Origin: a virus
Strand: one strand, 5' to 3'
IMG/VR virus record: IMGVR_UViG_3300047552_001017
Span: 1-25,566 of that record
DNA length: 25,566 bases
Below the pieces are notes generated by a model that made no database searches, was not told the origin of the DNA, and saw nothing but the letters and a program-made list of their open reading frames with translations. The position numbers and the translations under genes were made by a program. Shown here one piece after another: positions 7,049 through 24,887 of this stretch (position 1 is its first letter; each line of letters begins with the position of its first letter).

Positions 7049-7573
7049 ATGCCTAATCCTGAATTGATTGCTTTGCTGACTGCGGGATCTGCTTTTTTTA
7101 AAGACGGTGATAGGCAAACTAGCAGCGTGGTGTTGACGCGTTCCGAGCTGGCGGGGTATTTAGCGGGATTGACGCATGGTGCGACGTTGATGGCGTATGC
7201 TAAATGGGGCCAGGATGAGGCCAGCTTGCGTAATTTGATCGCATGGGTGCGTGTGGTGGCGATGGGCATGGCGATTGAACAGCAATGGCCTATCGAGCGT
7301 GGCAAGCCGATTATTTGCAATCTGGCGGCGATTGCGACTTATGAGGTCGTTATGCCGATGGTGCATGATGTGTGTGAAGGCCGGGGGCATATTGGCTTCA
7401 AAGCCTGTCCAGGCTGCAATGGCACCGGGCGCAAGCTGCTAACCAGCCGAGCTATACAGGAGGCATCAGGCGTTGAGCGGATGGCGTGGCGGCGGCATTG
7501 GGAGGGGCGCTATCGGCAGATTGTGCGAGCGGTGGCGGATTTGGATGCGGAGGTGCAGCGGGGCGGAAGGTGA
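7049..7573 (+). CDS. Q-like late antiterminator candidate with zinc motif
   Basis: A 174-residue protein from ATG 7049. A longer reading from 6968 would start inside the inverted repeat and is rejected. The N-terminal half is helical and carries no motif I know. Residues about 111-128 have Cys-x5-G...CPGCNGTGRK, a zinc-finger-like CxxCxGxG motif seen in phage Q-type antiterminators. A helical tail (WRRHWEGRYRQIVRAVADL) follows. It ends the early operon and lies upstream of a strong promoter with an immediate terminator (8353-8430), the usual target of Q. The identity is inferred from motif plus position. I cannot show homology here. Confidence 0.6.
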   Translation: MPNPELIALLTAGSAFFKDGDRQTSSVVLTRSELAGYLAGLTHGATLMAYAKWGQDEASLRNLIAWVRVVAMGMAIEQQWPIERGKPIICNLAAIATYEVVMPMVHDVCEGRGHIGFKACPGCNGTGRKLLTSRAIQEASGVERMAWRRHWEGRYRQIVRAVADLDAEVQRGGR

Positions 7574-8126: not shown

Positions 8127-8336
8127 AAAACTGCAAATTCAGATTCCATTATTTTACGTGCTCAGGCGCTTGGCTTTTTAGCTGGTTACAACCACAAACC
8201 AGGCAGCAATTACAGGGAATTAACAACAAGTGGAGACAGTCAGGCTAAACCTGCATATCCCTTTATTATTGATGGGATTAGAATGTCATGGGGAATGGCT
8301 AAACAGTATTTAGCTTTACGTGAATCAAGAAAATAA
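8119..8336 (+). CDS. Frameshifted small gene (A6 slip site), cassette third gene
   Basis: The ATG at 8119 has GGAG 7 bases upstream but reads only 20 codons (to 8181) in its own frame. A -1 shift at the A6 run after codon 2 (ATT AAA AAA C) enters an open frame to TAA 8334-8336. The product would then be about 72 residues and include AQALGFLAGYNHKPG, YPFIIDGIRMSWG and QYLALRESRK, which looks like real protein. That second frame has no ATG, GTG or TTG start before about 8282. Either frameshifting, a decayed gene or a homopolymer sequence error explains it. The family is not recognised. Confidence 0.55.
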
Positions 8337-8352: not shown

Positions 8353-8381
8353 TTGACATTGACCCAAAAACCCGCTATAAA
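8353..8381 (+). promoter_or_regulatory. Late promoter (pR'-like)
   Basis: TTGACA (8353-8358), a 17-base spacer and TATAAA (8376-8381) make the strongest sigma70 match in the window. A repeated TTGAC (8353 and 8359) lies at the -35 and in the spacer, where Q proteins bind in lambdoid phages. It lies immediately before the late terminator and terminase genes. Confidence 0.8.
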
Positions 8382-8397
8382 ATCCCAAAATAGAAAA

Positions 8398-8430
8398 AGC
8401 CTGCCCGGAAACGGAGCGGGCTTTTTTTTT
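8398..8430 (+). terminator. Terminator just after the late promoter (tR'-like)
   Basis: AGCCTGCCCG and CGGAGCGGGCT pair (10 bp with one bulge) around a GAAA loop and are followed by nine T. It begins about 10 bases after the predicted start site, so transcripts would be about 40 bases unless an antiterminator acts. Confidence 0.85.
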
Positions 8431-8456: not shown

Positions 8457-8984
8457 GTGGCGTTAACAGATAAGCAACAACGTTTTGTTGACGAGTATTT
8501 AAAGGATTTGAATGCGACGGATGCCGCGATTCGCGCGGGCTACACGACACCAGACAATCGAAATTCAGCCAGAACGCAAGGTTCGCGATTGTTGGCAAAT
8601 GTTAACATTTCTGTTGCTGTTTCTGCTGCGATGACTGAACGCAGTGACCGCACCAAAATTACATCCGACAGGGTATTGCGGGAAATTGGCCGCATCGGGC
8701 TGGTAGATCCGCGCAAAGCGTTCGATCAAAACAACGCCCTTTTGCCGGTCAAAGAATGGCCAGACGAGATTGCCGCGGCGATTTCATCCATAAAAATTCT
8801 GGAAGTGCGCGACGAAGACGGCCAGGTGATTGGTGAAACTAAGGAAATTAAATTCTGGGATAAACCGGCGGCGTTGACGTTAGCCGCGCGTCATTTGGGC
8901 ATGCTGAATGACAAGGTGACGCTGGACGTGACCGATGAACTGGCCGAACGACTGGCCAGGGCTAGACAGCGGCTCAATGGATGA
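8457..8984 (+). CDS. terS: Terminase small subunit
   Basis: A 175-residue DNA-packaging protein. The start MALTDKQQRFVDEYLKDLNA and the following helix-turn-helix (TDAAIRAGY...NARTQGSRLLAN) are typical of the Terminase_2 family. They recognise the phage DNA packaging site and feed the large subunit. The C-terminal half has the oligomerisation/coupling region (WDKPAALTLAARHLGML). The GTG start has AAGGTGAT about 2-9 bases upstream. The stop overlaps the large subunit ATG, so the two are translated together. It is the first gene after the late promoter and terminator. Confidence 0.9.
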   Translation: MALTDKQQRFVDEYLKDLNATDAAIRAGYTTPDNRNSARTQGSRLLANVNISVAVSAAMTERSDRTKITSDRVLREIGRIGLVDPRKAFDQNNALLPVKEWPDEIAAAISSIKILEVRDEDGQVIGETKEIKFWDKPAALTLAARHLGMLNDKVTLDVTDELAERLARARQRLNG

Positions 8985-10434
8985 ACTTATACAACTGGCG
9001 GCTCAGTGTGACACCGACCCGCAGCGCTGGGCGTTGTCCGCGTTTGACTGGGGCAATGGGCAGCTAAAAGCCCACGCCGGGCCAAGAGCCTGGCAAGCTG
9101 ATATTAATCGCATTATCGGATCGCATTTGCAGGATCCGCAAACGCGCTACCAACCGCTAAAAATTGCGGTGGCATCGGGTCACGGGATTGGCAAATCTGC
9201 GCAACTGGGCATGCTGGTGAATTGGGCCTTAAGCACTTGCGAAGATTGCAAGGTGGTCATTACAGCCAACACGGAAACCCAGCTCAGGACTAAAACCAGC
9301 CCGGAAATAGGCAAATGGTCACGCTTGTCGATCACGTCCGGATGGTTTGACACGCAATCCACCAGCATTTCTAGTGTGGACAAAAAACACACCCGCGAAT
9401 GGCGGGCGGATTTTGTCACGTGGTCAAAAACCAATACCGAAGCATTCGCCGGCCTGCACAACGAAGGCAAGCGGATTCTGCTGATATTCGATGAAGCATC
9501 CGCCATAGATGACGCGGTGTGGGAAGTGGCCGAAGGGGCACTGACCGACGAAAACACCGAGATTATCTGGATTGTGTTCGGCAACCCGACGCGTAACACG
9601 GGCGCTTTTAGGGAATGCTTTAGAAAGCATCGCCATCGCTGGGTGACTAGGCAGATTGATAGCCGCGATGTGGAAGGCACCAACAAAGCGCATTTCCAAT
9701 CCATGGTGGATGATTATGGTTTGGATAGTGACATTGTTAAGGTGCGTGTGCGTGGCTTATTTCCTAGCCTATCCGCCAAGCAATTCATCAGCACCAATGA
9801 TGTCGATGCGGCGTATGGCCGGGATCTTCGACCTGAATCTTATACGTTTGCTGCCAAGATATTGACTTGTGATCCGGCCTGGGAAGGCGACGATCAGTTA
9901 GTGATTGGCTTGCGGCAAGGCTTGGCGTTTTGGGTGTTGCGGACGATCCCCAAAAATGACAATGATGTTTATATTGCTAACCTGCTGGCCAACCTTGAAG
10001 ACGAGCATCATGCGGATGCGGTGTTCATCGATGCCGGTTATGGTACTGGCATTGCCTCGGCTGGCTCCACCATGGGCCGAGAATGGCAACTGGTTTGGTT
10101 TGCCAGTGCGTCTAGTGAGCCTGGATGCCTGAACAAACGCGCAGAAATGTGGCTGTTGATGCGCAATTGGCTGAAAGACGGTGGGGCAATCCCAAAAAAT
10201 CAGCAACTGTACGACGAGCTGATCAGCCCCGAAACGGTGGCCAGGCTTGATGGCAAAATCCAGCTGGAAAGTAAAAAAGACATGAAAGCGCGGGGTTTGC
10301 CCTCGCCCAACATTGCGGATGCCCTGGCTTTGAGCTTTGCGTTTCCGGTTAATAAAAAATTAAATCATTTATCTGCATCCGCCTCGGACAGCCGGCGCGG
10401 GTTTGATCCACTTAATCAAAAAAAGCGCTTATGA
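8977..10434 (+). CDS. terL: Terminase large subunit (ATPase and nuclease)
   Basis: A 485-residue packaging motor protein from ATG 8977. An ATG at 8935 is in frame but lies deep inside the small subunit gene. Walker A is SGHGIGKS (67-74), Walker B is LLIFDEAS (168-175) and a coupling motif GNPTRNTG is at 202-209. The C-terminal RNase H-like nuclease shows Asp299 (LTCDPAWEG), Asp352 (FIDAGYGTG) and a late Asp in NIADALAL. It cuts concatemeric DNA and pumps it into the prohead through the portal. The stop overlaps the next ATG by 4 bases. Confidence 0.9.
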   Translation: MDELIQLAAQCDTDPQRWALSAFDWGNGQLKAHAGPRAWQADINRIIGSHLQDPQTRYQPLKIAVASGHGIGKSAQLGMLVNWALSTCEDCKVVITANTETQLRTKTSPEIGKWSRLSITSGWFDTQSTSISSVDKKHTREWRADFVTWSKTNTEAFAGLHNEGKRILLIFDEASAIDDAVWEVAEGALTDENTEIIWIVFGNPTRNTGAFRECFRKHRHRWVTRQIDSRDVEGTNKAHFQSMVDDYGLDSDIVKVRVRGLFPSLSAKQFISTNDVDAAYGRDLRPESYTFAAKILTCDPAWEGDDQLVIGLRQGLAFWVLRTIPKNDNDVYIANLLANLEDEHHADAVFIDAGYGTGIASAGSTMGREWQLVWFASASSEPGCLNKRAEMWLLMRNWLKDGGAIPKNQQLYDELISPETVARLDGKIQLESKKDMKARGLPSPNIADALALSFAFPVNKKLNHLSASASDSRRGFDPLNQKKRL

Positions 10435-10688
10435 AAACCTATTTGTTTGGTTGTTTACCGCATCGATTGTATTGCGGCGGCGGTTCTGCGCCTACGCCAC
10501 CACCACCGCCACCGAATCCGCAGATTGCAAAGGTGCCTGATGCGATGGCGGTGCGTAAGGATACGATGAACAGCAATGTAGCCCAAGGCGGCGGTAAGTT
10601 TCGTTCAACGCTATTGACGGGCGGCCAGGGTGACGAAATTGATCAAAACAAGTTGGGCAAATCCACGCTGTTGGGCCGGCTTAAGTAA
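10431..10688 (+). CDS. Small Pro-rich virion-associated protein
   Basis: An 85-residue protein with a run of prolines (APTPPPPPPNP, about residues 20-30), a disordered Gly/Asn-rich middle, and a C-terminal motif STLLTGGQGDE...LGKSTLLG. Short Pro-rich proteins with a repeated TLLTG/TLLG ending recur next to portals in podoviruses, where they are thought to be minor tail or adaptor parts. This relation rests on pattern memory. It overlaps the terminase stop by 4 bases and the portal ATG by 1 base. The first 16 residues, which are Cys-bearing, may be poorly conserved. Confidence 0.6.
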   Translation: MKTYLFGCLPHRLYCGGGSAPTPPPPPPNPQIAKVPDAMAVRKDTMNSNVAQGGGKFRSTLLTGGQGDEIDQNKLGKSTLLGRLK

Positions 10689-12346
10689 TGTCTGACCTGC
10701 AGATTAAACAGCTCAATCAGCGCTGGCAAGCGTTGGTGAATGAGCGGGCGTCCTGGATTTCGCATTGGGAAGACATTTCCGATTATCTCTTGCCGCGTTC
10801 CGGACGGTTTTTTAACCAGCGTGTAAACGATGGCGATAAAAAACACAATCATATTTATGACAATACCGGCACCAAAGCGCTGCGTGTATTGGCGGCGGGT
10901 ATGATGTCCGGCATGACCAGCCCATCAAGGCCTTGGTTTAAATTGTCTGTGGCGGATAACGGTTTAATGCAATACGAGCCGGTGAAAATCTGGCTGAATG
11001 GTGTCACTGAGCAAATTCAAGATGTATTAGCCCGGTCAAATGCTTATCGGGTATTGCATCACATTTATGAAGAGCTGGGCGCCTTTGGTACAGCTTCTGC
11101 GTTTATTGGTCATGATTACGAAAACGTAATCCATTTGCATGCGTTTACTGCGGGCGAATATGTGCTGGCTCAAAACTGGCGGAATGAGGTTGAAACGCTT
11201 TATCGCGAATTTGATGCCACTGTTTCGCAGTTAGTGCGTGAATTTGGTTTTGATGTGTTGCCCGCCAGAATTCAATCGCAGTTTCAACGCGGCGAACTGG
11301 AGACATTGCACAGCATCAGGCATGCGATTGAACCGCGTCATGATCGCGACTTTAGCAAAAAAGATGCGAAAAACATGCCGTTTAAATCGTGCTATTGGTT
11401 GCAAGGGGATAATCAAACGCTGTTGAGAGAGTCCGGGTTTTTGTCCTTTCCTTGTGTATCGCCCCGTTGGGCCACCAAGCCTTGCGATGTGTACGGCTCA
11501 AGCCCTGCGATGGATGCGCTTGGCGACATTAAACAGCTGCAGCAAGATCAATCGCGCAAGTCTTTGGCGATTGAATACCAAGCTAATCCGCCGATTCAAG
11601 TGCCTAGCAGTTTAAAAAACCGTGAGTCTGATTATTTGCCCGGTGGCGTAACGTATTACGATCCTTTATCAGCGCCTCAAGGTGTCAAAAATGCGTTTGA
11701 CGTGCCTTTGGATATCCGTAATTTGTTGCTGGATGTGCAAGACATTCGCGGGCGCATTAATTCGGCGTTCTTTGCCGATGTGTTCATGATGATTTCCAGC
11801 ATCGATAGCCGCATGACAGCGACTGAAGTGGCTGAACGGCATGAAGAAAAGATGTTGATGTTAGGGCCGGTGGTTGAGCGTTTGAATAATGAATTGCTTG
11901 ATCCGTTAGTGGAAACCGTATTTGAACGGTTGCTAGTAGGCGGCTTATTACCCCCTGCCCCGGAAGAATTGCAAGGCGCGGATTTGAATATTGAATATGT
12001 GTCTGTGCTGGCTCAAGCGCAAAAGGCGGCGGCAGTGAACGGCGTTGATCGGTTTGTTTCACGTTTAGGTGAAATTGCCGCCATCAAACCGGATGTGTTA
12101 GACCGCTTTAATGCGGATCACTGGGCGGAAATGTATTCCGATAAATTGGGCATCGATCCAGAACTGATAGTGCCAGGCGAACAAGCGGCGTTAGTACGGC
12201 AAGACCGTGCAAAGGCTATGGCCGCACAACAGCAACAAATGGCGTTGACTCAGGCGGCGGAAATGGCGTCTAAATTGGGCAACACGCCGACAACACCCGG
12301 CACAGTCACAAACGAGCTGATAAAACGCTTAGGCATGGCGGCATGA
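10688..12346 (+). CDS. Portal (head-to-tail connecting) protein
   Basis: A 552-residue portal of the podovirus head-tail connector family. Typical blocks in order are LLPRSGRFF (near 35), ALRVLAAGMMSGMTSPSRPW (near 70-90), FGTASAFIGHD, SPRWATKPCDVYGSSPAMDA, LQQDQSRKSLAIEYQANPP, and MTATEVAERHEEKMLMLGP in the C-terminal stem region. Twelve copies form the ring at one vertex, through which DNA enters and leaves and on which the tail is built. The length is normal for the family. The C-terminal tail (AAQQQQMALTQAAEMASK) is helical. It overlaps the next gene by 4 bases. Confidence 0.9.
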   Translation: MSDLQIKQLNQRWQALVNERASWISHWEDISDYLLPRSGRFFNQRVNDGDKKHNHIYDNTGTKALRVLAAGMMSGMTSPSRPWFKLSVADNGLMQYEPVKIWLNGVTEQIQDVLARSNAYRVLHHIYEELGAFGTASAFIGHDYENVIHLHAFTAGEYVLAQNWRNEVETLYREFDATVSQLVREFGFDVLPARIQSQFQRGELETLHSIRHAIEPRHDRDFSKKDAKNMPFKSCYWLQGDNQTLLRESGFLSFPCVSPRWATKPCDVYGSSPAMDALGDIKQLQQDQSRKSLAIEYQANPPIQVPSSLKNRESDYLPGGVTYYDPLSAPQGVKNAFDVPLDIRNLLLDVQDIRGRINSAFFADVFMMISSIDSRMTATEVAERHEEKMLMLGPVVERLNNELLDPLVETVFERLLVGGLLPPAPEELQGADLNIEYVSVLAQAQKAAAVNGVDRFVSRLGEIAAIKPDVLDRFNADHWAEMYSDKLGIDPELIVPGEQAALVRQDRAKAMAAQQQQMALTQAAEMASKLGNTPTTPGTVTNELIKRLGMAA

Positions 12347-13223: not shown

Positions 13224-14243
13224 ATGGCTTTATTATCAGCGGGCAGTCTCACCCTGGCCGACGTATCCAAAGCATTTACCCCGGACGGCAAGGTTGACCC
13301 TTTAGCCGAGTTGCTCTCACAACAAAACGAAATTTTAGAAGACATCGTGTATGTGGAAGCCAACCAACCAACCAGCCATGTTGTCAGCATCCGCACCGGT
13401 TTGCCTGATGTGTATTGGCGTTCTTACAACGCTGGCACACCCAGCAGCAAATCTACACGGGCGCAAGTCACTGAGCCCTGCGCAATGCTGGAAGCGCGTT
13501 CACATATCGACGCGGATCTGTTGAAGTTGAATGGCAATAGTGCGGCGTTTAGACTGTCTGAGGATTCCGCGTTTGTTGAAGCGATGTCGCAAGAAATGGT
13601 TGGCAAAATCTTTAATGGCAATGTTGGCGTGGATCTGAAAACCTTTTCAGGCTTTGCCACCCGTGCCAGCAGCACTTCAGCCGGCAACGGCCAAAACGTC
13701 ATTTTGGCGGGCGGTTCTGGCTCAGATAATGCGTCTATGTATTTAGTGGTTTGGGGTAAAGAAACTGTATTCTGTCCCTTCCCTAAAGGCTCCAAGGCCG
13801 GTTTGGTGAATCGCGATTTGGGCGAAGAATCTGTTGCTGATGCTAATGGAAACTATTACCAAGCATCACGCTCATTGTACAAATGGGATGCGGGGTTGGT
13901 CGTTAAGGATTGGCGTTATCTGGTGCGCATTGCCAATATTGACGTGTCTGATTGGGTGGGTGTAACCGGTACACAAGCATCCAATGCATCTACTAATTTA
14001 ATCAAGCTGATGATGAAAGCGATTCATCGCATTCCGTCTTTTAGAATGGGCCGAGCTGCATTTTATGGCAATCGCACCATTAAAGAAGGCTTGATGATTC
14101 AGGCATTGGAAAAATCTTCTTCAGCATTGGGCATACAAGATGCATTGTCGCAGTTCGGCGATCAATACAAAGAATTGACATTCATGGGCATTCCAGTGCG
14201 TTGCGTCGACCAGTTAGGCGTTGCCGAAACCCCCATTTCTTAA
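13224..14243 (+). CDS. Major capsid protein (GP7-like, HK97 fold expected)
   Basis: A 339-residue protein with a strong ribosome site (AGGAGG, about 7 bases before ATG), in keeping with high expression. The N-terminus (LSAGSLTLADVSKAFTPDGK) and blocks such as VEANQPTSHVVSIRTGLPDV, KTFSGFATR and DWRYLVRIANIDVSDW match the capsid type found in epsilon15 and BPP-1-like podoviruses. It forms the icosahedral shell. No N-terminal pro-domain is apparent. A GC-rich hairpin follows the stop codon. Confidence 0.85.
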   Translation: MALLSAGSLTLADVSKAFTPDGKVDPLAELLSQQNEILEDIVYVEANQPTSHVVSIRTGLPDVYWRSYNAGTPSSKSTRAQVTEPCAMLEARSHIDADLLKLNGNSAAFRLSEDSAFVEAMSQEMVGKIFNGNVGVDLKTFSGFATRASSTSAGNGQNVILAGGSGSDNASMYLVVWGKETVFCPFPKGSKAGLVNRDLGEESVADANGNYYQASRSLYKWDAGLVVKDWRYLVRIANIDVSDWVGVTGTQASNASTNLIKLMMKAIHRIPSFRMGRAAFYGNRTIKEGLMIQALEKSSSALGIQDALSQFGDQYKELTFMGIPVRCVDQLGVAETPIS

Positions 14244-14288: not shown

Positions 14289-14741
14289 ATGTTGACTGAT
14301 GCTTTACTAAAATTATCTGCTGCCCAAGCCGTCACAGCCACGGCGGTCAGCACAAATACAGTCGATTTGACTGATAACCGCGACATGGGGCCAGGCGAGG
14401 ACGTTTATGCCGTGTTTGGCGTGGATGTGTCAGCCACGGCTGCGGGTGCGGCTACTGTGACATTTGAGGTCATTTCTTCGGCAGCGGCGGATTTATCTTC
14501 CCCGACTGTTTTGGTGTCTAGCGGTGCCATTCCTAAAGCCGATTTGGTACTGGGCAGGGCGCCGATTGTACTGTGCGTGCCGCAGTCGAATTTAACCAGC
14601 TTGCCCATTGGCCAGCGTTATTTAGGCGTTCGCTATACCGTGGCCACGGGGCCATTGACGGCGGGTTCGTTTACTTGTTATTTGACCGACAGCGATGTGA
14701 GTGTGGGCAAATATTACCCTAGCGGCTTTGCGGTGCTTTAA
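14289..14741 (+). CDS. Bbp16-like capsid cement protein
   Basis: A 150-residue protein rich in Ala, Thr, Val and Ser with a strand-rich pattern (VDLTDNRDMGPGEDVYAVFG, GAATVTFEVISS, LGVRYTVATG). It ends in YYPSGFAVL. The position directly after the capsid and the overall pattern match the Bbp16 decoration protein of BPP-1, a jelly-roll trimer that clamps the shell from outside. An AGGAG ribosome site lies about 10 bases before the ATG, separate from the capsid gene's own, fitting high expression. Confidence 0.7.
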   Translation: MLTDALLKLSAAQAVTATAVSTNTVDLTDNRDMGPGEDVYAVFGVDVSATAAGAATVTFEVISSAAADLSSPTVLVSSGAIPKADLVLGRAPIVLCVPQSNLTSLPIGQRYLGVRYTVATGPLTAGSFTCYLTDSDVSVGKYYPSGFAVL

Positions 14742-14743
14742 TT

Positions 14744-14974
14744 ATGGCACGATATAAAGCGCATGCCGAGATATGGCTCGGCCATGAAAATCGGAAAATC
14801 GCAGAGGGCCAAGAGTTTGAAACCGATTTTCCGGACAACTTTAAACCTGGCGGCAATGTGGAAGCGTTAGACGCGCCAAAACGTGGCCGCAAAAAAGAAG
14901 CCATCGTAGCGGATGTGGAAACGGAGGAAACGACCGCAACGCCAGAAGCTTTGTCTTACGAAGACGGCGTGTAG
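14744..14974 (+). CDS. Small virion-region protein, basic core and acidic tail
   Basis: A 76-residue protein. It starts with a strand-like piece (YKAHAEIWLGHENRKIAEGQ), followed by a basic patch (APKRGRKKEA) and a strongly acidic C-terminus (DVETEETTATPEALSYEDG). It lies between the cement and membrane-protein genes with only 2 bases on each side. I do not recognise the family. Similar small proteins in this place are found in BPP-1-like phages and may belong to the head. Confidence 0.6.
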   Translation: MARYKAHAEIWLGHENRKIAEGQEFETDFPDNFKPGGNVEALDAPKRGRKKEAIVADVETEETTATPEALSYEDGV

Positions 14975-14976
14975 TC

Positions 14977-15351
14977 GTGGCGGATCAGGTGATTAATCCA
15001 GGCCTGTGGGCAGACAACGGCGGCTTGATTGGGCTGGTGGTGTTTGCCCTGTTTTATGTTTTGTACAGTTTTTCAAAACATTTGAACAGCTTACAAGATA
15101 AACACCGCGAAGACCTGTCAAAACTGATGGATTTGCACGCTAAGGAGCGTGATAAATGGTCGGAAATTGTTGACGTTAGGCAAAGATCCACCAACGAAAC
15201 CATCAAAAGCATTTCCGACGAAACCAATCAATCCATGCGATTGATGGCCGAGGCGATTAACAAAATGGCTTGTCGTTATCGGGCAACAGATCATCACATC
15301 GATAACGACGCCAGTTATTCACAACGCAGCATTAATTCGGATAGGTTATGA
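14977..15351 (+). CDS. Membrane protein with coiled coil (holin-like candidate)
   Basis: A 124-residue protein from a GTG start. The N-terminal 13 residues are polar, residues about 14-32 are one hydrophobic helix (GGLIGLVVFALFYVLYSFSK), and residues 33-95 form a long charged helix likely to be a coiled coil. The tail is basic and polar. One anchor plus a cytoplasmic coil resembles BhlA/UviB-type small holin proteins, but other membrane roles fit equally. The stop overlaps the tailspike start by 4 bases. No endolysin gene is next to it, which weakens the holin reading. Confidence 0.55.
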   Translation: MADQVINPGLWADNGGLIGLVVFALFYVLYSFSKHLNSLQDKHREDLSKLMDLHAKERDKWSEIVDVRQRSTNETIKSISDETNQSMRLMAEAINKMACRYRATDHHIDNDASYSQRSINSDRL

Positions 15352-17456
15352 GCGGCTATATTACGGGCAATTTTCCTAACCTATACGATCTGGTAACCAA
15401 TCGGCAAATAGGCTATTTAGACCAGGACGGAAACGAGAAATTCTTTACTGAATCGTTAGGCGGTCAGCATAAAACGCCTGATGATTTTGGTGCTATAGGC
15501 GATGGACTTGTTGATGATTCTGTTGCATTTTTTGATGCGTTGAATTATTGCTCACAAAACGGTATCAAATTAGTTTCTGATTCTTCCAAAACCTACAGAA
15601 TTGCAACCAATATCTTAATTGACAGAACAGGCGACAGAGCGTTAAGCGTTGATCTACAAGGCGCTACATTATTTCTTGACAACGCTTCTATAAAACTAAC
15701 AGCGCCAACGCCGTTTTTGACAACTACAATGACTTCTGAAGTCACGAAAAACAGAAGTTATTTAGATTTGACCAGTGTCACGGGGCTAACTTCTGGCGAT
15801 TTGCTAGAAATTGAGTGCCCTTATAAATCCGGGCCTGATCATGCTGATTCTCTGCATTATTACGTTTATCGGGAGCGGTCAGGAAACAAGTGTTATGTTG
15901 AAAGCCTGACTGTTTCAGACATCACAGTCGCACAAATAACAGCATCGGGCGGATCGGGCACGCTGGCATCATTTACTGTTAATGCTTACCACCTAAACGA
16001 GCCGGTTTCTTGGCTCAACACTAATTTAATCATTACAGACACAGCCGGAATCATCACTGGTGCGCTGGAGATCAATGGTTGCAAAGTGGTGTGGCTGGAC
16101 AAGATCGTAACAGACGGCAAATGCCGTGCTCAAATTTATTTGCGTCGTAATGCGTATGACTTTTTGAGCCGTTCTGCCTTCAATAATTTCGGTTATACAA
16201 ATGACATAGGCACGGTGGCGCCACTTGTATCTGGAAGCCCTAACTATTATGGTTATGGCGTGTTACGTGAACGCAACTGGATGAGTTTCACATCTCAGTG
16301 CGTAGGTCGTCACGGCTGGCACACATTCGACGATGCCTATGGTCAAATGCATTCGTTTTATGCTGATTGTGTGGCTGAGCGGGTCGCCGGCGGGTTTTCT
16401 ACGCACAATGGGGCGTGGAATGTCAATTATGACAATTGCCGAGTTATAGGAACGCTAGGCTTTAACGTATTCAGAGCATGCAATGTCACACTAACAAACT
16501 GCAAAGCGCTGGTTGAAACAATCGCTGTCAATATGTCAGCTATAAATCACCGCATAACAATCGACGGCTGCGAATTTGAGTCATTAAGCACATCTTCGCA
16601 AGTGTTGTTTGTTGATACGTCCTACACGTCCGGCGTGCGTGATCCGCATTCCGCAAACCCAAGCGCGACATCGGCAAATTACCCGGTTAAATGGTCGTTA
16701 ACTAAGTCTAAGCTGTATTCAAAAAACACATCGAATACTTGGTCTTTTGGCGTAGATAACGTAAATGATGATTCTGAGCTTGAAATTTCTGATGTCACGT
16801 TTAATAACATTATCAATTGGTCGCTAAATCAAGGCACGTTACACGCCAAATCAAAAGTTGTTAATAACAAATTTATTGGCATCTTGTCTTCGCAATTTGC
16901 CATTGCCCCCGCTGCATTTCCTGCCAATGCTGGCGCAAAATGGCTATTTGATAATAATAAACTGTATGTTGATGGCGCATCATCCAACGGCGCCATGCTG
17001 TATCTGGTCGCCCCGAATACCAATGTTACTATCACACTGCGACGGAATCATATTGACATGCCTAGCCTGGCTGGATTAGTACGTTTGAATACAGGCGGCG
17101 CATGCAATATTGACTTTTGCGAAGGGAATATCAGCAACGGCAGACTATTTTTTATAAATACAGGCAGCGCCACTACACTAAACATCACAAATCTTTATGA
17201 CAACATCACATCAGGCGACATCAATAACAGCACATCCGGGCTAACAATAACCAATCGCTATGGCAACATTGACAGGCTTTTGCAATTTGACCAAGCAGCC
17301 ATCAATTTTGCAGCGGCAGCACCCACAACCGGCGCTCACAAATTAGGCGAGCGCGTCTATAACTCTGCCCCTGTTGCTGGTGGTACTGAGGGTTGGGTTT
17401 GCACAGCCGCAGGATCGCCTGGCACTTGGAAAACGTTCGGCTCCATTTCTGCATAA
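15348..17456 (+). CDS. Tailspike with pectate-lyase-like beta helix
   Basis: A 702-residue receptor-binding protein. Residues 1-40 are a short virion-attachment part. Residues 43-65 carry the DFGAIGDGLVDDSVAF motif that opens right-handed beta-helix domains of the Pectate_lyase_3 type. Residues about 80-640 continue as irregular repeats of short strands. The C-terminal part (PTTGAHKLGERVYNSAPVAG, then GWVCTAAGSPGTW) is a compact cap also found on many phage fibres. It probably binds or cuts a surface polysaccharide. The middle is richer in A and T than its neighbours, which suggests host-range exchange. It lies before the tail tube genes, not after them. Confidence 0.8.
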   Translation: MSGYITGNFPNLYDLVTNRQIGYLDQDGNEKFFTESLGGQHKTPDDFGAIGDGLVDDSVAFFDALNYCSQNGIKLVSDSSKTYRIATNILIDRTGDRALSVDLQGATLFLDNASIKLTAPTPFLTTTMTSEVTKNRSYLDLTSVTGLTSGDLLEIECPYKSGPDHADSLHYYVYRERSGNKCYVESLTVSDITVAQITASGGSGTLASFTVNAYHLNEPVSWLNTNLIITDTAGIITGALEINGCKVVWLDKIVTDGKCRAQIYLRRNAYDFLSRSAFNNFGYTNDIGTVAPLVSGSPNYYGYGVLRERNWMSFTSQCVGRHGWHTFDDAYGQMHSFYADCVAERVAGGFSTHNGAWNVNYDNCRVIGTLGFNVFRACNVTLTNCKALVETIAVNMSAINHRITIDGCEFESLSTSSQVLFVDTSYTSGVRDPHSANPSATSANYPVKWSLTKSKLYSKNTSNTWSFGVDNVNDDSELEISDVTFNNIINWSLNQGTLHAKSKVVNNKFIGILSSQFAIAPAAFPANAGAKWLFDNNKLYVDGASSNGAMLYLVAPNTNVTITLRRNHIDMPSLAGLVRLNTGGACNIDFCEGNISNGRLFFINTGSATTLNITNLYDNITSGDINNSTSGLTITNRYGNIDRLLQFDQAAINFAAAAPTTGAHKLGERVYNSAPVAGGTEGWVCTAAGSPGTWKTFGSISA

Positions 17457-17471
17457 ACCACCCCATAAAAC

Positions 17472-18074
17472 ATGACCACACCCGTTGACATCTGTAACCT
17501 AGCCCTTGCCCGCCTGGGCGATGAGGCTACGGTTTCTAGCATTGATCCGCCTGAGCAATCTGTGCAGGCTATGCATTGCGCCACTTTTTACCCAATTGCC
17601 TTACGCCAAGCGTTAGATGATGAACACGCCTATTCATTCGCCACGCGTCGGCAGATATTAGCCCCGGTTACAAATGACGCGGTGGATGATTGGCTTTATT
17701 GTTATGCCCTGCCCTCGCAGCTGGTCAACATCATTTGCTTGAGCTCAGCCGGTCAAACCGTTACCGATTACAGCATCGAAATCGATGCCGATGGGGACAA
17801 GGTGGTTTATGCCAATACCACGCCGATTGGCTTGGTGTATGTGAGTTCGGATGTATCATCCGCGCATTTTTCGCCCAGTTTTGTGGCGTATTTTTCGGCG
17901 CTGTTGGCGCATCATTTGGCCGGGCCTATTTTAAAGGGTGACGTCGGCGCATCAGCGGCTATCAAAATGCTAGAGTTGGCCAGGACATTACGCCAAACCG
18001 CCACCGAACGCGACAGCCTGTCTTTCCGCAAAAAATCCACTTATGTGCCTGCGGGCATACAGGCCAGGCAATAA
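17472..18074 (+). CDS. Tail adaptor / tubular-A-like protein
   Basis: A 200-residue protein. The start TPVDICNLALARLGDEATVS, then SIDPPEQSVQAMHCATFYPIALRQAL and a Trp/Tyr-rich block (DDWLYCYALPSQLVNI), follow the pattern of podovirus adaptor proteins that join portal to nozzle (T7 gp11-like). The helical C-terminus (AIKMLELARTLRQTATERDS) is usual. It ends 1 base into the next gene. The name rests on pattern and on the following nozzle-like gene. Confidence 0.65.
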   Translation: MTTPVDICNLALARLGDEATVSSIDPPEQSVQAMHCATFYPIALRQALDDEHAYSFATRRQILAPVTNDAVDDWLYCYALPSQLVNIICLSSAGQTVTDYSIEIDADGDKVVYANTTPIGLVYVSSDVSSAHFSPSFVAYFSALLAHHLAGPILKGDVGASAAIKMLELARTLRQTATERDSLSFRKKSTYVPAGIQARQ

Positions 18075-20146
18075 TGCCCAGTCTACGACTCATCAGGCAA
18101 TCGTTCGCCGGCGGTGAAATATCGCCCCGCTTATTAGGGCGGATGGACATTACCAAATTTAAATCCGGCTTGTCTCAAGCCAAAAACATGATCACGTTGC
18201 CGCAAGGCTCGATTGTTAAGCGGCCTGGCACGCGTTTTGTGCGCGAATGTGGCAACACGGATTTTTTTTATGATGTCCGGCTGATCCCGTTTATCTTCTC
18301 AAACAGCCAATCCTTTGTGTTGGAGTTTGGGCATTTGTACATGCGCGTACATACCCTGGGTGCGACGGTGATGGATGGCGCGGTGCCTTATGAAATCGTG
18401 ACGCCTTACACCGGCGAGCATGTAAACCATTTGCATTATGTGCAATCTGGGGATGTGATTACCTTGACGCATCCGGAATATGAACCGCGCGAATTATCCC
18501 GCATCAGCAATACCAACTGGACGCTAACGGTGATTGATTTCACCACCAAACAAGCCGCACCGCCTAAACCAACGGTGGTGACGGTGATTCCGGTTTCTGG
18601 CGGGAACAATATTACTTTCCGCTACAAGATTACAGCCGTTAGCAAAAACGGTTATGAAGAATCGCGCGGTTCTCCAGCTTCTGATCCGGCATCCAATGAC
18701 TTGACGTTAGACGGGAATGAAAACGTCATTTCCTGGACAACCACCACGGGCGCGGCTTATTACAATGTCTATAAGCAAGCCAATGGCACGTATGGCTTTA
18801 TTGGCCAAACCAAGGGCTTGACGTTCACAGACGACAACATCATCGCGGACATGACGCGCACTATTCCTGTGTTTGAGGATCCGTTTGATACGTCCAATCC
18901 CACGGCAGTCGGGTATTTTGAACAACGGCGCATCTTTGCCGGCACGACTGAAGAGCCAATGAATCTATGGGCTACACAAAGCGGGTCTGATTACAATATG
19001 GCGTATACGATTCCCAGCCAGGATAGTAATGCCTTACGCTTTCGGATGATGAGTAACCGCTCTGACCAGATTCAGCATTTAGTCAATCTGCAAGATTTGC
19101 TGGTGTTTACAGGCGCAAATATCTGGCGTGTAACCGGCGGCAATGGTGCGCTGACGCCTTCCACGATTAACGTCAAAATCCAATCCCAAATCGGCGCCAC
19201 GCCTATTCAGCCTCAAGTGGTCACAAACATCGTGTTGTTCGCCGAATACGGAAGCGGCCACATTCGCGAAATGACGTACAGTTGGGAGATGAACGGCTAC
19301 AAAATTCAGGACTTAAGCATCCTGGCCGCGCATTTGTTTGATGGCAATACGATTAATGACATGGCGTATATGAACGCGCCCTGGCCTATATTGTGGTGTG
19401 TCAGCAGTGACGGCAAACTGCTGGGCATGACCTACTCACCCGAACATGAAGTGATGGGCTGGCATCAACATACAACAGGCACGCCTGCGGCTTTTTATGA
19501 CGGCGGCATTCGTAACGTTTGTGTGATTCCTGAAAACGGTATTGATGCGTTGTACATGGTCGTCAATCGCACGATAGACGGCACTATTACCAAATACATA
19601 GAGCGTATGGAGCCCTTTTTGCAGCCACTGCAAGAGAATTCATTTTATGTGGACTGCGGCTTGACGTACAGCGGCACAGCGGCCACGGTCATTAGCGGAC
19701 TGGATCATTTGGAAGGCAAACAGGTAGCTATTCTCGGGGATGGCGCAGTAATGGCACCCAAAACCGTTATAGGCGGCTCCATTACGCTGGAAACGCCAGT
19801 GACTAAAGCGCAAATTGGCTTGCCTTTCAGCGCTTATTTAACCACCCTACCCGTGTATTTTGACGATACATCACTGGGGCAAAGTCGGGTTAAAAGCATC
19901 AATAAAGTCTGGGCCAGGGTGCAAAACTCCGGGCCTTTTGAAGCCGGGCCCAGTTTTGACAAAATGACACTGCAAAAGCCGCGCACGTTTGAAAGCTATG
20001 GCCAGTCGCCTTTGCTGAAAGACGGTGAATATGAACTGACGGTGATGGGTGACTGGAATCAAACCGGTCAAATCATTATCAGGCAATCCGACCCCTTGCC
20101 GTTTGAAGTCATTTATTTGGTGTCTGAGGTGTCCATTGGCGGTTGA
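18074..20146 (+). CDS. Tail nozzle / tubular-B-like protein
   Basis: A 690-residue tail protein. The opening RLIRQSFAGGEISPRLLGR and TLPQGSIVKRPGTRFV blocks are typical of the podovirus nozzle family (T7 gp12-like). Residues about 155-265 look like an inserted fibronectin-III-type domain (NNITFRYKITAVSKNGYEES, then TGAAYYNVYKQANGTYGFIG). The remaining strand-rich parts would form the hexameric tube through which DNA leaves. The first base is shared with the previous stop codon. The methyltransferase start lies inside its 3' end. Confidence 0.75.
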   Translation: MPSLRLIRQSFAGGEISPRLLGRMDITKFKSGLSQAKNMITLPQGSIVKRPGTRFVRECGNTDFFYDVRLIPFIFSNSQSFVLEFGHLYMRVHTLGATVMDGAVPYEIVTPYTGEHVNHLHYVQSGDVITLTHPEYEPRELSRISNTNWTLTVIDFTTKQAAPPKPTVVTVIPVSGGNNITFRYKITAVSKNGYEESRGSPASDPASNDLTLDGNENVISWTTTTGAAYYNVYKQANGTYGFIGQTKGLTFTDDNIIADMTRTIPVFEDPFDTSNPTAVGYFEQRRIFAGTTEEPMNLWATQSGSDYNMAYTIPSQDSNALRFRMMSNRSDQIQHLVNLQDLLVFTGANIWRVTGGNGALTPSTINVKIQSQIGATPIQPQVVTNIVLFAEYGSGHIREMTYSWEMNGYKIQDLSILAAHLFDGNTINDMAYMNAPWPILWCVSSDGKLLGMTYSPEHEVMGWHQHTTGTPAAFYDGGIRNVCVIPENGIDALYMVVNRTIDGTITKYIERMEPFLQPLQENSFYVDCGLTYSGTAATVISGLDHLEGKQVAILGDGAVMAPKTVIGGSITLETPVTKAQIGLPFSAYLTTLPVYFDDTSLGQSRVKSINKVWARVQNSGPFEAGPSFDKMTLQKPRTFESYGQSPLLKDGEYELTVMGDWNQTGQIIIRQSDPLPFEVIYLVSEVSIGG

Positions 20147-20771
20147 GTTATTGAACATGGATTGCATGGAATACATGCGCGGCTTGCCTGATAAGGCTTT
20201 CGATTTGGCTATTGTTGATCCGCCGTATGGTATCAATTTTGCAAAAACGTATACCGGAAAAGGCTGGGTGGTTCGTGACCAAAAAGATTGGGATAAACAA
20301 GCGCCAGGGGAGGGGTATTTTGATGAGCTTTGGCGTGTTTCAAAAAATCAAATTGTGTGGGGCGCTAATTATATGACGCCTTATTTGCCAGCGTCACAAC
20401 ATTGGATTTTTTGGGATAAAGGCCAGCGGAATTTTTCACTAGCGGATGGCGAACTTGCTTTTACTTCATTTGATAAAGCGTTGCGGGTTTTTGAAATGTC
20501 ACGTGGCGCTATGCAAGGTGAGCAAGGTTGGGAGCAAAAATTTCATCCAACGCAAAAGCCTATTAAACTTTATAAATGGTTGCTAGAAAACTACGCCAAA
20601 CCCGGCCAAAAAATCCTGGATACCCATCTAGGCAGCGGTAGCAGCGCCATAGCCGCGCATTATTTCGGTGTTGATTTTGTAGGCACTGAACTTGATAAAG
20701 ATTACTACGAAGCCGCTTGCAAACGGTTCGAGCTGGCCACAGCACAAACAACGCTATTTGAATTATCGTGA
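20136..20771 (+). CDS. DNA methyltransferase, beta class (orphan)
   Basis: A 211-residue enzyme. DPPYG (residues 28-32) lies near the N-terminus and the SAM-binding part (ILDTHLGSGSSAIAAHYFG, about 160-178) near the C-terminus, with HPTQKP at 137-142. This order marks the beta class of N4-cytosine/N6-adenine methyltransferases (N6_N4_Mtase family). TTG at 20136 has GAGGTG about 5 bases upstream and overlaps the nozzle stop. ATG at 20157 is the alternative (204 residues). No restriction enzyme is nearby, so it probably modifies phage or host DNA to escape restriction or alter expression. The target site is not readable from sequence. Confidence 0.8.
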   Translation: MAVELLNMDCMEYMRGLPDKAFDLAIVDPPYGINFAKTYTGKGWVVRDQKDWDKQAPGEGYFDELWRVSKNQIVWGANYMTPYLPASQHWIFWDKGQRNFSLADGELAFTSFDKALRVFEMSRGAMQGEQGWEQKFHPTQKPIKLYKWLLENYAKPGQKILDTHLGSGSSAIAAHYFGVDFVGTELDKDYYEAACKRFELATAQTTLFELS

Positions 20772-20798
20772 TTCAACAAAGGATTGAGGCCTCTATAA

Positions 20799-21296
20799 AT
20801 GGCTAAAGCGCTGCACTGCATTTTCAGAAAACCCACCGAAACCGATATTAAAACCCTCACCGCACAATTGCGCCAGGAAGACATCGACGACTTAAAGGCC
20901 GTCGGTTGGCATTCAATGGAGTTTGCCGTGCGGTTGTCGGTGTTGCGTAGTGATTGGCAGCATTTACAAGCGGTTGAAGTGAATAAAGAACTGGTGTGCA
21001 TTTTCGGCTGCGTACCGCCACAACAACACTTTGATGCAGCCATCCCCTGGTTGTTATGCACAAACGCCATGGGGCGTTATGGCCGCGAAGTAACGGTGCG
21101 CACGCGGTTTGAATTAAATCGCATGCTGGATACCTGGCCTGCACTCAGTAACGTGGCTGCAGCCTCCAGCAAAAAGACTTTGCGCTGGCTTGAGTTATGC
21201 GGCTTTGAAATGCAGGAATCCGTTATATACCCCGCAACCGGCGTTGAAGTGGTGCCTTTTAAAATGATCAAAAGACCTGATGCCGACTTGCACTGA
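20799..21296 (+). CDS. T7 gp13-like internal virion / acyltransferase-fold protein
   Basis: A 165-residue protein. The order of strands and helices, and the segment NVAAASSKKTLRWLELCGFE near the C-terminus, resemble GNAT-type acyltransferases and the small podovirus proteins at the T7 gp13 position. No clear acetyl-CoA loop (QxxGxG/A) is visible, so catalytic activity is doubtful. It lies before gp14-, gp15- and gp16-like genes, in T7 order. Its end overlaps the cupin-SET gene by 17 bases. A role in virion assembly is likely, and the enzymatic role is open. Confidence 0.6.
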   Translation: MAKALHCIFRKPTETDIKTLTAQLRQEDIDDLKAVGWHSMEFAVRLSVLRSDWQHLQAVEVNKELVCIFGCVPPQQHFDAAIPWLLCTNAMGRYGREVTVRTRFELNRMLDTWPALSNVAAASSKKTLRWLELCGFEMQESVIYPATGVEVVPFKMIKRPDADLH

Positions 21297-22101
21297 ACTA
21301 AAGCCGCTCTTGGCCGGATTGAAACCGTCTGATTATCGCGAAGCGATTTTGCGCATTGAGCAAATGATGTTGACATTGCCGCCCATGGATTTGCCGGTGA
21401 CACATCATTTTGCGCCGGGGATGTACATGCGCGAGCTGTTTATCCCCGCGGGCAGTACGTTAACCGGAAAAATTCATAAATACGACCATTTTTGCCTAGT
21501 CTTAAAAGGCGACATTGAAATTCTTGACCAGGATGGATACCAGCGCATCACTGGCCCTGCCCGCTTTACATCTAAAGCCGGCGCTAAACGGTTTGGCTTG
21601 GCGCATGAAGACACGATATTCATCACAGTGCATCCGACGGACGCGCAAGATGTTGAAACGTGTGAACGGGATCTAGTGTGTAATGATTTTGAAACCTATC
21701 AACGCTTTTGGGTCGAGCATCACAGCGAATTAGACCGGCTTGATTTTCAGGCTTTTTTAACCGAACACCCGCAAAAGGCCTTACACACAAACGCGCAAGA
21801 CTTTGTGAACACGGACATAGACCGGGTTGAGCTAAAACCTTCAGCCATTGACGGCCTGGGAGTGTTTAGCAAAATACGGATTGAACCCGACATTTTGATA
21901 TTGCCCGCGCATTATGACGGCCAAATGACCTTTGGCGGGCGTTATATCAACCACTCCAAAGTGCCTAATTGCCTATTGTGGCGGGACTCTACCGATAACG
22001 TTTGGGTGATTTCGCGCTATACCCTTTTCCCCGGTGATGAATTAACAATTGATTATCGCGAAGCGGTGTCTTTTGATGAATCTATGAGGTTTTTAACATG
22101 A
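21280..22101 (+). CDS. Cupin-SET domain fusion protein
   Basis: A 273-residue protein with two domains. Residues about 43-120 fit a cupin barrel (HKYDHFCLVLKGDIEILDQD with His66, His70 and Glu80; His109 in GLAHED). Residues about 182-262 fit a SET protein-lysine methyltransferase: GLGVFS (192-197), RYINHSKVPNC (221-231) and GDELTIDY (252-259), which match the SET motifs GxG, NHSxxPN and GEELTxDY. SET enzymes use SAM to methylate lysine. The linker (125-180) is helical and acidic. It lies between the gp13- and gp14-like genes, so it may enter the cell with the core proteins or modify a virion protein. The substrate is unknown. Confidence 0.8.
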   Translation: MPTCTELKPLLAGLKPSDYREAILRIEQMMLTLPPMDLPVTHHFAPGMYMRELFIPAGSTLTGKIHKYDHFCLVLKGDIEILDQDGYQRITGPARFTSKAGAKRFGLAHEDTIFITVHPTDAQDVETCERDLVCNDFETYQRFWVEHHSELDRLDFQAFLTEHPQKALHTNAQDFVNTDIDRVELKPSAIDGLGVFSKIRIEPDILILPAHYDGQMTFGGRYINHSKVPNCLLWRDSTDNVWVISRYTLFPGDELTIDYREAVSFDESMRFLT

Positions 22102-22655
22102 GTTTTGCTTATGTCGCCGTTGCGTTGGCGGTGGTGAGTGCAGCAGTGGGCGGCGTCACGGCATCCCAGCAAGCTTCTGCCCAAAAACGCCAGGCCAATT
22201 ATCAATCCCAGGTGGATGCCAACAACGCCAAAATTGCCGCGCAACAACGCAGCGATGCTTTACAGCGGGGCGAAATCGAGGCGCAACGCTCCATGGCCGA
22301 ACGGGCTCAATTGCTGGGACGACAGCGGGCGGCGTTAGCGTCTAATGGCGTGGATTTAAGCCAGGGATCGGCGCTGGATTTATTGGCGTCGACCGAGTTT
22401 TTAGGTCAGCAAGAAGTGGCCACCATTCAAAGCAATGCCGCGCGCGAAGCCTGGGGCTATGACATTCAGGGTATGAATTACCGCTCTTCTGCCGGGTTTG
22501 AAGAATGGAAGGCGCGGCAAGCCAATCCTACTAAAGCCGGCGTAATGGCCGGCATGTCTTCGCTGCTGAGTTCGGCATCGTCTTATGCCTCGTCGGGCGC
22601 GTTAAAAGCGGGCGGCGGTGGCGGTGGGGCTAATGGCGGCGGATCTACATTTTAA
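22098..22655 (+). CDS. T7 gp14-like internal core protein
   Basis: A 185-residue protein. A hydrophobic, Ala-rich N-terminus (FAYVAVALAVVSAAVGGVTA, about residues 3-22) is followed by long helical, Gln/Ala/Arg-rich stretches (AEMs of the type QAN..QVDANNAKIAAQQRSD) and a conserved-looking GVDLSQGSALDLLASTEFLG segment. It ends in a Gly-rich tail (GGGGGGANGGGSTF). This matches podovirus internal core proteins at the gp14 position, which are ejected and form the outer-membrane part of the DNA channel. The start overlaps the cupin-SET stop by 4 bases. Confidence 0.7.
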   Translation: MSFAYVAVALAVVSAAVGGVTASQQASAQKRQANYQSQVDANNAKIAAQQRSDALQRGEIEAQRSMAERAQLLGRQRAALASNGVDLSQGSALDLLASTEFLGQQEVATIQSNAAREAWGYDIQGMNYRSSAGFEEWKARQANPTKAGVMAGMSSLLSSASSYASSGALKAGGGGGGANGGGSTF

Positions 22656-22664
22656 AGGGCTGAT

Positions 22665-24887
22665 ATGAAAGTACCTGTCATGGAATCGGCAGGCGTCCGG
22701 CAAGCCGGTTTGCCTGATGCCCGCCAAGTCGGTCGCGGTCTGGATGGGTTTTTGGATGTCGGGCAACAGCAAGCGTTGGCGGCCACGCAAAACGCTTTGG
22801 GCGCTGTGCAACACGCGGCTTTGTCGATGCATTTGCAAGCCTTGGAGGATACCAATCGTTTACGGGTGCAGGATGCCGAAAACCAATTGATTCAGCACGA
22901 TCAGGATGCGGCGTTTGGTGATAACGGTTGGCGCAGGCAAACCGGCGCGGCGGTGTTTACCCAACAAAACAGCAAGCCCTTAACCGATAACGTGTTGGAC
23001 AGCCGGCAAGCTAAAATTGATGAAATCATCAAGGGCTTGGGCAATGATTACCAGCGCACGCTGTTTAAACAGCGTGCTGATCAATCTGGTTTGTCTTTGC
23101 GTGGTCATTTGATGAATCACGAAAACGAGCAAGGCCGCGTGTATAAACGCGGCGTGTTGGTGCAAGGCCTGGATACCGCCGAACGCCAAATGAGCTTGTT
23201 TTATAATGACGGTGCGCAAGTGCAAGCCGCATTGGATAATATTCAACAGTTTAGTGTGGATCTGGGCGAACTGGAACACGGCAGCCAGGAAATTGGCCAG
23301 GTAGCCGCCAAACAACGCGCATCCTCGGCCATCAATAGCGCCATACAAGCCGCGCTACAGCAACAGGACCACGCCAGCGCCACGCGATTATTGCAGCAAT
23401 TCAGCGGGCATATGGAAGCCAGCGACATGCTGAAAGCCGCCAAACTGATTACCGAGGAACAAGACAACACCACCGCCATGCAAATCAGCAAAACGGTGAT
23501 TGGTGAGCTTTACCCGCGCATGGTGACACCTGAAGGCGATAGGGCCATCAATATTCTAGCCATGGCGGAATCAGGAAACCGGCAGTTTTCCGAAACCGGT
23601 CAGCCCATTACCAGCCCCAAGGGTGCAATCGGCAAAATGCAGGTGATGGAAAGTACAGGCCCGGAAGCGGCCAAGCTGGCGGGCTTGCCCTGGAATCCGG
23701 CTTTATTTAGACGCGCAAAAACAGGCAATGCCCAACAAGATCAGGAAACCGAACAATACAACCAGGCGCTGGGCACGGCGTATTTTAAGAAGCAGTTACA
23801 AGATTTTAACGGTGATTTGGCTTTGGCTTATGCCGCGTACAATGCTGGCCCCGGTGCCACTCGCAAAGCGCTTAAACAAGCCGGCGCCCAATGGCTATCC
23901 GCCTTACCTGAGGAAACCCAGGCTTATGTCAGTCAAAACCTTAAGGCCTATGCCTCCGGAGCCGGGCAATATGCCAAGCCCACCTTACGCGATGCCCAAC
24001 AGACGGCGCTTTCACAGCTAGGCCCAGCCAGCGCCGAACTGCAGCAGAAAACTTTACGACTGGTGGAACAGCGTTATCAAGACGAACTCAAAGCGCAAAA
24101 AGAGCGCGAAGACGATGCCACCGCGCAAGCCATGCAATACATTTACACCAACAAAGTGGCGTTTGAAGCGTTGCCGGCTGAGCTAAGCGCACAAGTGCCG
24201 ATCGATAAAAAAATGGCAGTCACCGAGTTTGCCAAGAAAGTGACGACAGGCGAAGACCTGCACGACCCTGCCGCCTGGGCGGATGTGGTCAGCATGACCC
24301 CGCAAGCGCTTAGTCAAATGACCCCACAACAATTTGTGGCGGCCTTTCGGGATAAACTGGACGATAGCCATTTGGATAAAGGCTTGGCCATGATCAAAGA
24401 AGCTTCTACGCGTGGCGATACCAATGCACATTTAGAAGTCATCAGCACGCAAAAACGCTTGCAATCGGCGGCCATCAAGGCCGGCATTTTGCAAGAAGAC
24501 GGCAAAGCCAAAAACAATGATGCCTTGTTGCAATATCGGCAATTTGAAACGCTGGTGGATGAGCGGGTGCGGGAGTTTGAAAGCACGCTGGGACAACAAC
24601 GCAAAGCCACCACCGAAGAATTGCAACAAGTCATTGACGGCGTTCTGGTGGATCAGGTGTTTGACTCCGGCGGTTTGTTTGGGTTTGAAACTCAAAAACC
24701 GGTGGCTTTGCTGGATGAGCAATCCATTGACAGAGCGTTTGTGAAAGTGGGGCGTGAAGAAATCAAACTGAGCGCTATTCCCGCCGATCAACGCAGCCTG
24801 ATTATTAGCAAGCTGGAACAACGCGGGCGGCAAGCCACCGAGCAAGCCATTGCTGAACTATGGGTTGCTGCTGGCAAGCCCCGTTGA
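22665..24887 (+). CDS. Internal core protein with lytic transglycosylase domain
   Basis: A 740-residue protein in the T7 gp15 position. Residues 1-285 are helical, charged and Gln-rich. Residues about 290-432 form an SLT lysozyme-like domain: catalytic Glu302 in AMAESGN, then SPKGAIGKMQVM (317-328), AYAAYNAGPGAT (388-399) and LPEETQAYVSQ (414-424). Residues 433-740 are again helical. In T7 the transglycosylase sits at the N-terminus of gp16; here it is in the middle of the preceding gene. It likely cuts a local hole in peptidoglycan during DNA ejection. The start has a weak GGGC ribosome site. Confidence 0.8.
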   Translation: MKVPVMESAGVRQAGLPDARQVGRGLDGFLDVGQQQALAATQNALGAVQHAALSMHLQALEDTNRLRVQDAENQLIQHDQDAAFGDNGWRRQTGAAVFTQQNSKPLTDNVLDSRQAKIDEIIKGLGNDYQRTLFKQRADQSGLSLRGHLMNHENEQGRVYKRGVLVQGLDTAERQMSLFYNDGAQVQAALDNIQQFSVDLGELEHGSQEIGQVAAKQRASSAINSAIQAALQQQDHASATRLLQQFSGHMEASDMLKAAKLITEEQDNTTAMQISKTVIGELYPRMVTPEGDRAINILAMAESGNRQFSETGQPITSPKGAIGKMQVMESTGPEAAKLAGLPWNPALFRRAKTGNAQQDQETEQYNQALGTAYFKKQLQDFNGDLALAYAAYNAGPGATRKALKQAGAQWLSALPEETQAYVSQNLKAYASGAGQYAKPTLRDAQQTALSQLGPASAELQQKTLRLVEQRYQDELKAQKEREDDATAQAMQYIYTNKVAFEALPAELSAQVPIDKKMAVTEFAKKVTTGEDLHDPAAWADVVSMTPQALSQMTPQQFVAAFRDKLDDSHLDKGLAMIKEASTRGDTNAHLEVISTQKRLQSAAIKAGILQEDGKAKNNDALLQYRQFETLVDERVREFESTLGQQRKATTEELQQVIDGVLVDQVFDSGGLFGFETQKPVALLDEQSIDRAFVKVGREEIKLSAIPADQRSLIISKLEQRGRQATEQAIAELWVAAGKPR

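Follow-up and report, generated by a model that had tools for sequence, protein, structure and literature searches.

The available parts of two published accounts describe how, in the known Q and AlpA systems, RNA polymerase pauses as sigma region 2 grips a -10-like element, and how promoter-bound Q or AlpA loads to build a nozzle within the RNA exit channel (PMC6606751, PMC9371919). In the same parts, the Q21 and AlpA binding sites lie between the -35 and -10 hexamers (the AlpA site at -25 to -20; PMC6606751, PMC9371919), and the -10-like element of PalpB is placed at -1 to +5 (PMC9371919). The AlpA loading complex, in the portion of the account available, was built with a 12-nt RNA.

The window analysed here is a virus record of 25.6 kb (25,566 nt; all positions are those of the window unless a locus is named). 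By analogy with these systems, positions 8353-8430 very probably form a late switch of the Q-dependent pR'/tR' type, whose terminator is unusually close. A sequence-only reading had proposed a switch of the pR'/tR' type at this place, and the proposal is strengthened by a promoter and terminator that are conserved together, a putative pause element at a fixed place, a conserved patch in the promoter spacer and a protein with a predicted Q fold. The pause-type -10-like element was not part of that reading.

Organization of the cassette and its genomic setting

The cassette spans 78 bases and consists of a promoter, a -10-like element, a hairpin and a T9 tract (Table 1). The promoter that had been proposed, TTGACA-N17-TATAAA, is confirmed at 8353-8381, and an A-rich stretch of 7 nt separates CAAAAT from the hairpin. 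The immediate terminator proposed with it stands as a hairpin followed by T9, but not as a simple 10-bp stem: a GAAA loop closes 6 + 3 pairs that flank a bulged A, and the stem is extended below by up to 5 A-U pairs. The RNA of 8389-8430 folds with an MFE of -23.3 kcal/mol (z -5.6). A simple promoter and terminator scan of the window lists neither part of the cassette, because it accepts only -10 hexamers that end in T and stems that have no bulge. In 1000 shuffles of the window, a perfect promoter (spacer of 16-18, TATAAA or TATAAT) occurs 20 times, and not once (0/1000) is it followed by a T7 run at a distance of 15-60 nt.

Table 1. Positions of the cassette elements and neighbouring genes in the window.
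Feature	Position	Strand	Remarks
CI-type repressor	2390-3100	minus	phrog_4, E 5.6e-24
VapE-like gene	4215-6641		upstream of the Q-like gene
Q-like antiterminator gene (predicted)	7049..7573	+	174 aa; CxGxG...CxxCxGxG zinc motif; C-terminal helix-turn-helix region
Small genes	7690-7917 and 7914-8126		between the Q-like gene and the cassette
-35 hexamer TTGACA, late promoter (pR'-like)	8353..8358	+	
17-nt spacer	8359-8375		
Upstream part of spacer, candidate Q binding element	8359..8370	+	YYGMNNCA core; conserved in relatives
-10 hexamer TATAAA	8376..8381	+	
-10-like CAAAAT, predicted sigma-dependent pause element	8386..8391	+	about -2 to +4; 4 nt after the -10
Predicted transcription start	about 8388	+	placed 7 nt past the -10 hexamer
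Terminator hairpin (tR'-like), GCCTGCCCG-GAAA-CGGAGCGGGC	8399..8421	+	GC stem from about +12
Terminator T9 tract	8422..8430	+	
Terminase small subunit, first late gene	8457..8984	+	GTG start at 8457; PF03592, E 7e-37
Terminase large subunit	8935..10434	+	phrog_2, E 1.5e-36
Portal / head-to-tail connector	10688..12346	+	PF12236, E 3e-173
Major capsid protein, GP7 family	13224..14243	+	PF20911, E 4e-120
Remaining late block: Bbp16, tail fibre, T7 gp14-like, SLT transglycosylase	14289..24887	+	

The cassette stands directly before terminase, as had been claimed, with T9 ending at 8430 and the small subunit starting at the GTG at 8457. The BPP-1/T7-like late gene set that the same reading had named is found downstream (i.e. 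Bbp16, Bbp19, GP7 capsid, head-to-tail connector and T7 gp14). The late block also encodes a SET-domain protein (21280-22101; PF00856, E 6.9e-8).

Several further features were observed around the Q-like gene. Just 5' of it lies a 56-nt inverted repeat (6786-6841 / 6932-6987, 89% complementary, arms 90 nt apart), which has no match in the viral contigs. The small genes between the Q-like gene and pR' (7612-8336) have a promoter-like sequence of their own at 7612-7639; at the corresponding position relatives have either nothing or a CRISPR-like repeat, and the gap between Q and pR' seems to be an insertion spot. This lone, type I-F-like CRISPR repeat lies between the Q-like gene and pR' in L002 (3777-3804, minus strand), and is the same in L004. 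In L002 it matches Rfam CRISPR-DR4 at 29.8 bits (E 5.7e-5; the gathering score, 35, is not reached), is enclosed in an 11-bp inverted repeat and resembles the solitary repeat units that the available part of one report describes as RNA anti-CRISPRs (PMC10651486).

Distribution of the cassette among relatives

A query with the terminase small subunit (terS) yields 70 viral loci. Homologues of the 7049-7573 protein are present in eight of the 70 (phmmer against all ORFs of the loci), and the cassette is present in the same eight and in no other (scan for an exact-hexamer promoter plus terminator). These eight loci represent five lineages, and searches with the Q-like protein add L080, L102 and L103/L104, which gives nine lineages with the window included. 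Our results reveal that C-A-x-A-x-T stands exactly 4 nt past the -10 in 9/9 lineages, that a terminator is present in 8/9, with its GC stem beginning 17-20 nt after the -10, that the -10 is TATAAA in 6/9, and that TTGAC is kept in six of the seven rows aligned. A chance origin of the cassette is untenable because it is conserved in relatives.

L080, L102 and L103 were recovered through the protein alone, so that their cassettes serve to test the idea. In each of them CATAAT stands exactly 4 nt past the -10 of a promoter, and two of the three have a terminator. Their -10 hexamers are TAGGAT (L080), TAAATT (L102) and TATATT (L103) given a spacer set at 17, so that this part is fitted, the hexamers being set by the 17-nt and 4-nt spacings. 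The promoter and -10-like element are kept in L102, but only the first arm of the terminator is present and the 3' half is missing, either through true loss or through an assembly join; an ORF begins where this 3' arm is absent (L102 3560-3620).

The distance between gene and cassette is variable. Either 137 to 779 nt separate the Q-like gene from the cassette behind it, or the cassette overlaps the gene end (by 41 nt in L003 and L009 and by 4 in L080); in L102 and L103 the cassette stands at or just past the gene end. The Q-promoter linkage in the window is not tight, because 779 nt with other genes intervene. This distance would suit a late switch of the same kind served by another loader (a host factor, or an N- or put-like mechanism), which we nevertheless consider very improbable: all eight terS loci that have the cassette or the gene have both, and the predicted fold of the protein is like that of lambda Q (see below). 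It is probably the 7049-7573 protein that lets RNA polymerase pass the stop.

Conservation of the cassette

The 78-nt cassette is 72.4-94.9% identical between the window and six relatives, compared with 61.2-77.4% for the Q-like gene (six relatives) and 62.2-73.0% for terS (five relatives). Identity in the 100 nt upstream is 55.8-65.9%, which we judge to be near random and about what a gapped alignment of unrelated DNA gives. Among the relatives, the cassette is more conserved than the Q gene in 13 of 15 pairs, the exceptions being L002/L004 and L009/L080. The z scores of the seven hairpins folded (window and relatives) range from -3.6 to -5.8. Hairpin covariation is slight, with one pair showing changes on both sides; as proof of the hairpin it is too weak and we do not rely on it.

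Such conservation could also be expected of a short functional RNA of about 43 nt, made from a constitutive promoter while late expression is controlled otherwise. A strong promoter with a strong terminator would give this RNA in abundance, and its sequence is conserved in most relatives. However, the RNA is almost all terminator, the stem sequence is quite different in L103, Rfam at the gathering score gives no match in the window and six loci, and such an RNA would account for neither the pause element nor the Q-like gene; we regard a small RNA as highly unlikely.

The promoter spacer bears on the Q-dependent late switch, which is the reading we prefer. Its first 12 bases are conserved and its last 5 are not. 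The conserved half would be needless for a plain promoter, and its position agrees, by analogy, with Q21 and AlpA binding. The candidate Q site is thus far a conserved patch with no defined repeat.

Specificity of the cassette grammar

When promoter and -10-like element are searched for as one pattern that leaves out the terminator, nine of 2.9 million viral contigs match, and eight of these nine have a Q-like gene and a terminator. The ninth (L085), T4-like by eye, lacks both the Q-like gene and the terminator and is a chance match. A terminator-only pattern finds six contigs, all among the eight cassette contigs. Least probable of the alternatives, and hardly tenable, is that the hairpin simply ends transcription of early or inserted upstream genes, beside a coincidental promoter-like sequence: the cassette does follow small genes (7690-8126) with their own promoter-like sequence, and a terminator at 8399-8430 would insulate early from late genes, but the spacing of promoter, -10-like element and terminator is kept in relatives that lack these small genes, including L003 and L009, in which the promoter reaches into the end of the Q-like gene, and a search with the promoter only recovers the terminator.

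In the collection of genome contigs, the promoter pattern gives no match, and the search for Q homologues gives 197 pattern stretches, none of which is confirmed. The cassette has no BLASTN match among named phages; for the terS region, a Mannheimia phage is the sole match, over 10%. The literature matches listed for BPP-1 and late promoters include no description of this switch.

We also surveyed 133 distinct promoter-like sites in loci L001-L079. C-A-x-A-x-T stands at 4 nt in seven of them, all seven with a terminator not more than 61 nt from the -10, and the 126 promoter-like sites without a -10-like element at 4 nt have no terminator within that distance (0/126). Since six of the seven sites come from the very family on which the motif is based, L022 is the sole independent case. 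It was found blind and has the same grammar (805-885; promoter, CACACT at 4 nt and an immediate terminator). Its cassette stands behind ORF 134-757, a 208-codon stretch, and before genes that look lysis-like by eye. No family of known function was found for this ORF, and its product is possibly an antiterminator of a new type.

The Q-like protein

The 7049-7573 product matches the PHROG Q-like families weakly and in its C-terminal part (phrog_127, E 1e-4; phrog_304, E 9.7e-4), and its homologue in L103 matches PHROG Q-like profiles better (E 5.5e-8). At E up to 10 the window protein is not matched by PF03589, which the available part of one report gives as the lambda Q family of Pfam (PMC7171158), nor by PF06530 (21Q) or PF06323 (82Q); Pfam gives only a sub-threshold DnaJ zinc finger. 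A sequence-profile search of the PDB returns two chance-level matches only (E 0.6).

Predicted structure is more informative. Our second AlphaFold2 model (nine sequences, pLDDT 78.2, pTM 0.70) has lambda Q as its top Foldseek match (probability 1.00; E 3.4e-4 for 7ubn), with TM values of 0.63/0.67 for 7ubm and a lambda Q range of 0.61-0.67; a first, poorer model likewise has lambda Q as top match. Aligned with lambda Q by VIA-align, the model reaches Z 13.2 (133 residues, 2.4 A), the next being 12.5, with about 15% identity in the structural alignment. Z values are 9.4-13.2 for the six lambda Q entries, 7.0 and 6.0 for AlpA and from 4.9 for unrelated chains, middling values being common for helical proteins. 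The model fits the lambda Q fold, i.e. a helical body, an inserted zinc finger and a helix-turn-helix; its N-terminal 27 residues, which would include the nozzle segment, have low confidence. The 21Q and 82Q proteins are absent from the fold matches listed, an absence to which we attach no weight. We consider the lambda Q assignment sound because of the gap in Z to the unrelated rows, the PHROG matches and the cassette. The suggestion of a Q-like gene upstream, made earlier from the letters, is thus borne out by a predicted lambda Q fold, weak PHROG matches and co-occurrence with the cassette.

A broader proposal, which we put forward tentatively and rate at somewhat below even chances, is that (i) the protein belongs to a clade of lambda-Q-fold antiterminators without a Pfam Q model; (ii) these phages carry a minimal, portable switch of <80 bp, with a pause site abutting the stem and Q loading before any base of the hairpin; and (iii) the cassette grammar may find antiterminators of families not known so far, L022 being a possible case.

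Proposed mechanism of the late switch

We infer the pausing, binding, antitermination and RNA length as follows. Host RNA polymerase with the housekeeping sigma would start at about 8388, and sigma would re-bind the -10-like CAAAAT at 8386-8391. Because this start puts the element at -2 to +4, polymerase would pause at about +11 or +12, i.e. on the base that opens the terminator stem. If the 7049-7573 protein is absent, polymerase would proceed and stop in T9, leaving a terminated RNA with a predicted length of 43 nt, counted from the assumed start through the last T of T9. The Q-like protein, if bound on the conserved upstream half of the spacer, would load onto the paused polymerase and narrow the RNA exit channel, so that hairpins would be prevented and the terminase, capsid and tail genes could then be transcribed. 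With the terminator unusually close, Q would have to load before the hairpin exists. A pause next to the terminator stem raises the question of whether Q loading and action can fit within about 40 nt.

Comparison with known systems

Among named phages, the nearest relatives of the Q-like protein are in Halomonas phage phiHAP-1 (27.6%) and Vibrio phage douglas 12A4 (29.1%). The annotated Q-like relative in phiHAP-1 has no cassette in the ~250 bases after the gene. Douglas 12A4 has, by eye, a promoter and then a terminator right after its Q-like gene, as in the family described here, but about 54 nt separate the -10 from the start of its terminator. A related arrangement was observed on plasmid pC of Spartinivicinus ruber (L106), which encodes a primase, VRR-NUC, a Q-like gene and an amidase; downstream of the Q-like gene (about 3375-3480, by eye) are a promoter, a CATACT element and a terminator, and L106 is probably a phage-plasmid that has a switch of this kind.

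The 21Q/pR' system resembles the window in what we propose for it by analogy, i.e. a Q site in the promoter spacer, a pause and a nozzle mechanism; it differs in that the available part of the 21Q report describes two TGAGCA direct repeats (PMC6606751), and the cassette has none. The AlpA/PalpB/tB system is similar in having, in the parts of the reports at hand, one factor, a site between the -35 and -10 and a downstream terminator (PMC9371919, PMC7969949), and the model of the window protein also matches AlpA (Z 7.0). The zinc finger, however, is absent from AlpA as described in the available part of one report (PMC9371919), and tB begins 54 nt past the start in that of the other (PMC7969949), whereas the GC stem in the window begins at about +12. 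This closeness of the terminator is the main difference from the AlpA system.

Lambda Q is the closest in predicted fold, and the available part of one account describes an inserted zinc finger in lambda Q too (PMC9371919). The lambda Q/pR'/tR' system has, like the layout predicted here, a late promoter, a -10-like pause element, a terminator before the late genes and an antiterminator gene upstream, but its -10-like element stands 6 nt after the -10 (by eye, L093), compared with 4 nt in the window. The terminated RNA of lambda is 194 nt long, against the 43 nt predicted here, and the late block of lambda begins with lysis genes, that of the window with terminase.

Our results would widen the range of the lambda-Q late switch to a group of environmental phages whose late genes are BPP-1/T7-like, and they provide a family of natural variants for aligning the cis elements. 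The grammar of the cassette (promoter, -10-like element at +4 nt and hairpin within 20 nt) offers a search tool for antiterminators missed by sequence models. In brief, the principle is known from phage lambda, and the window very probably holds a compact version of it, in a different kind of phage and with a divergent Q.
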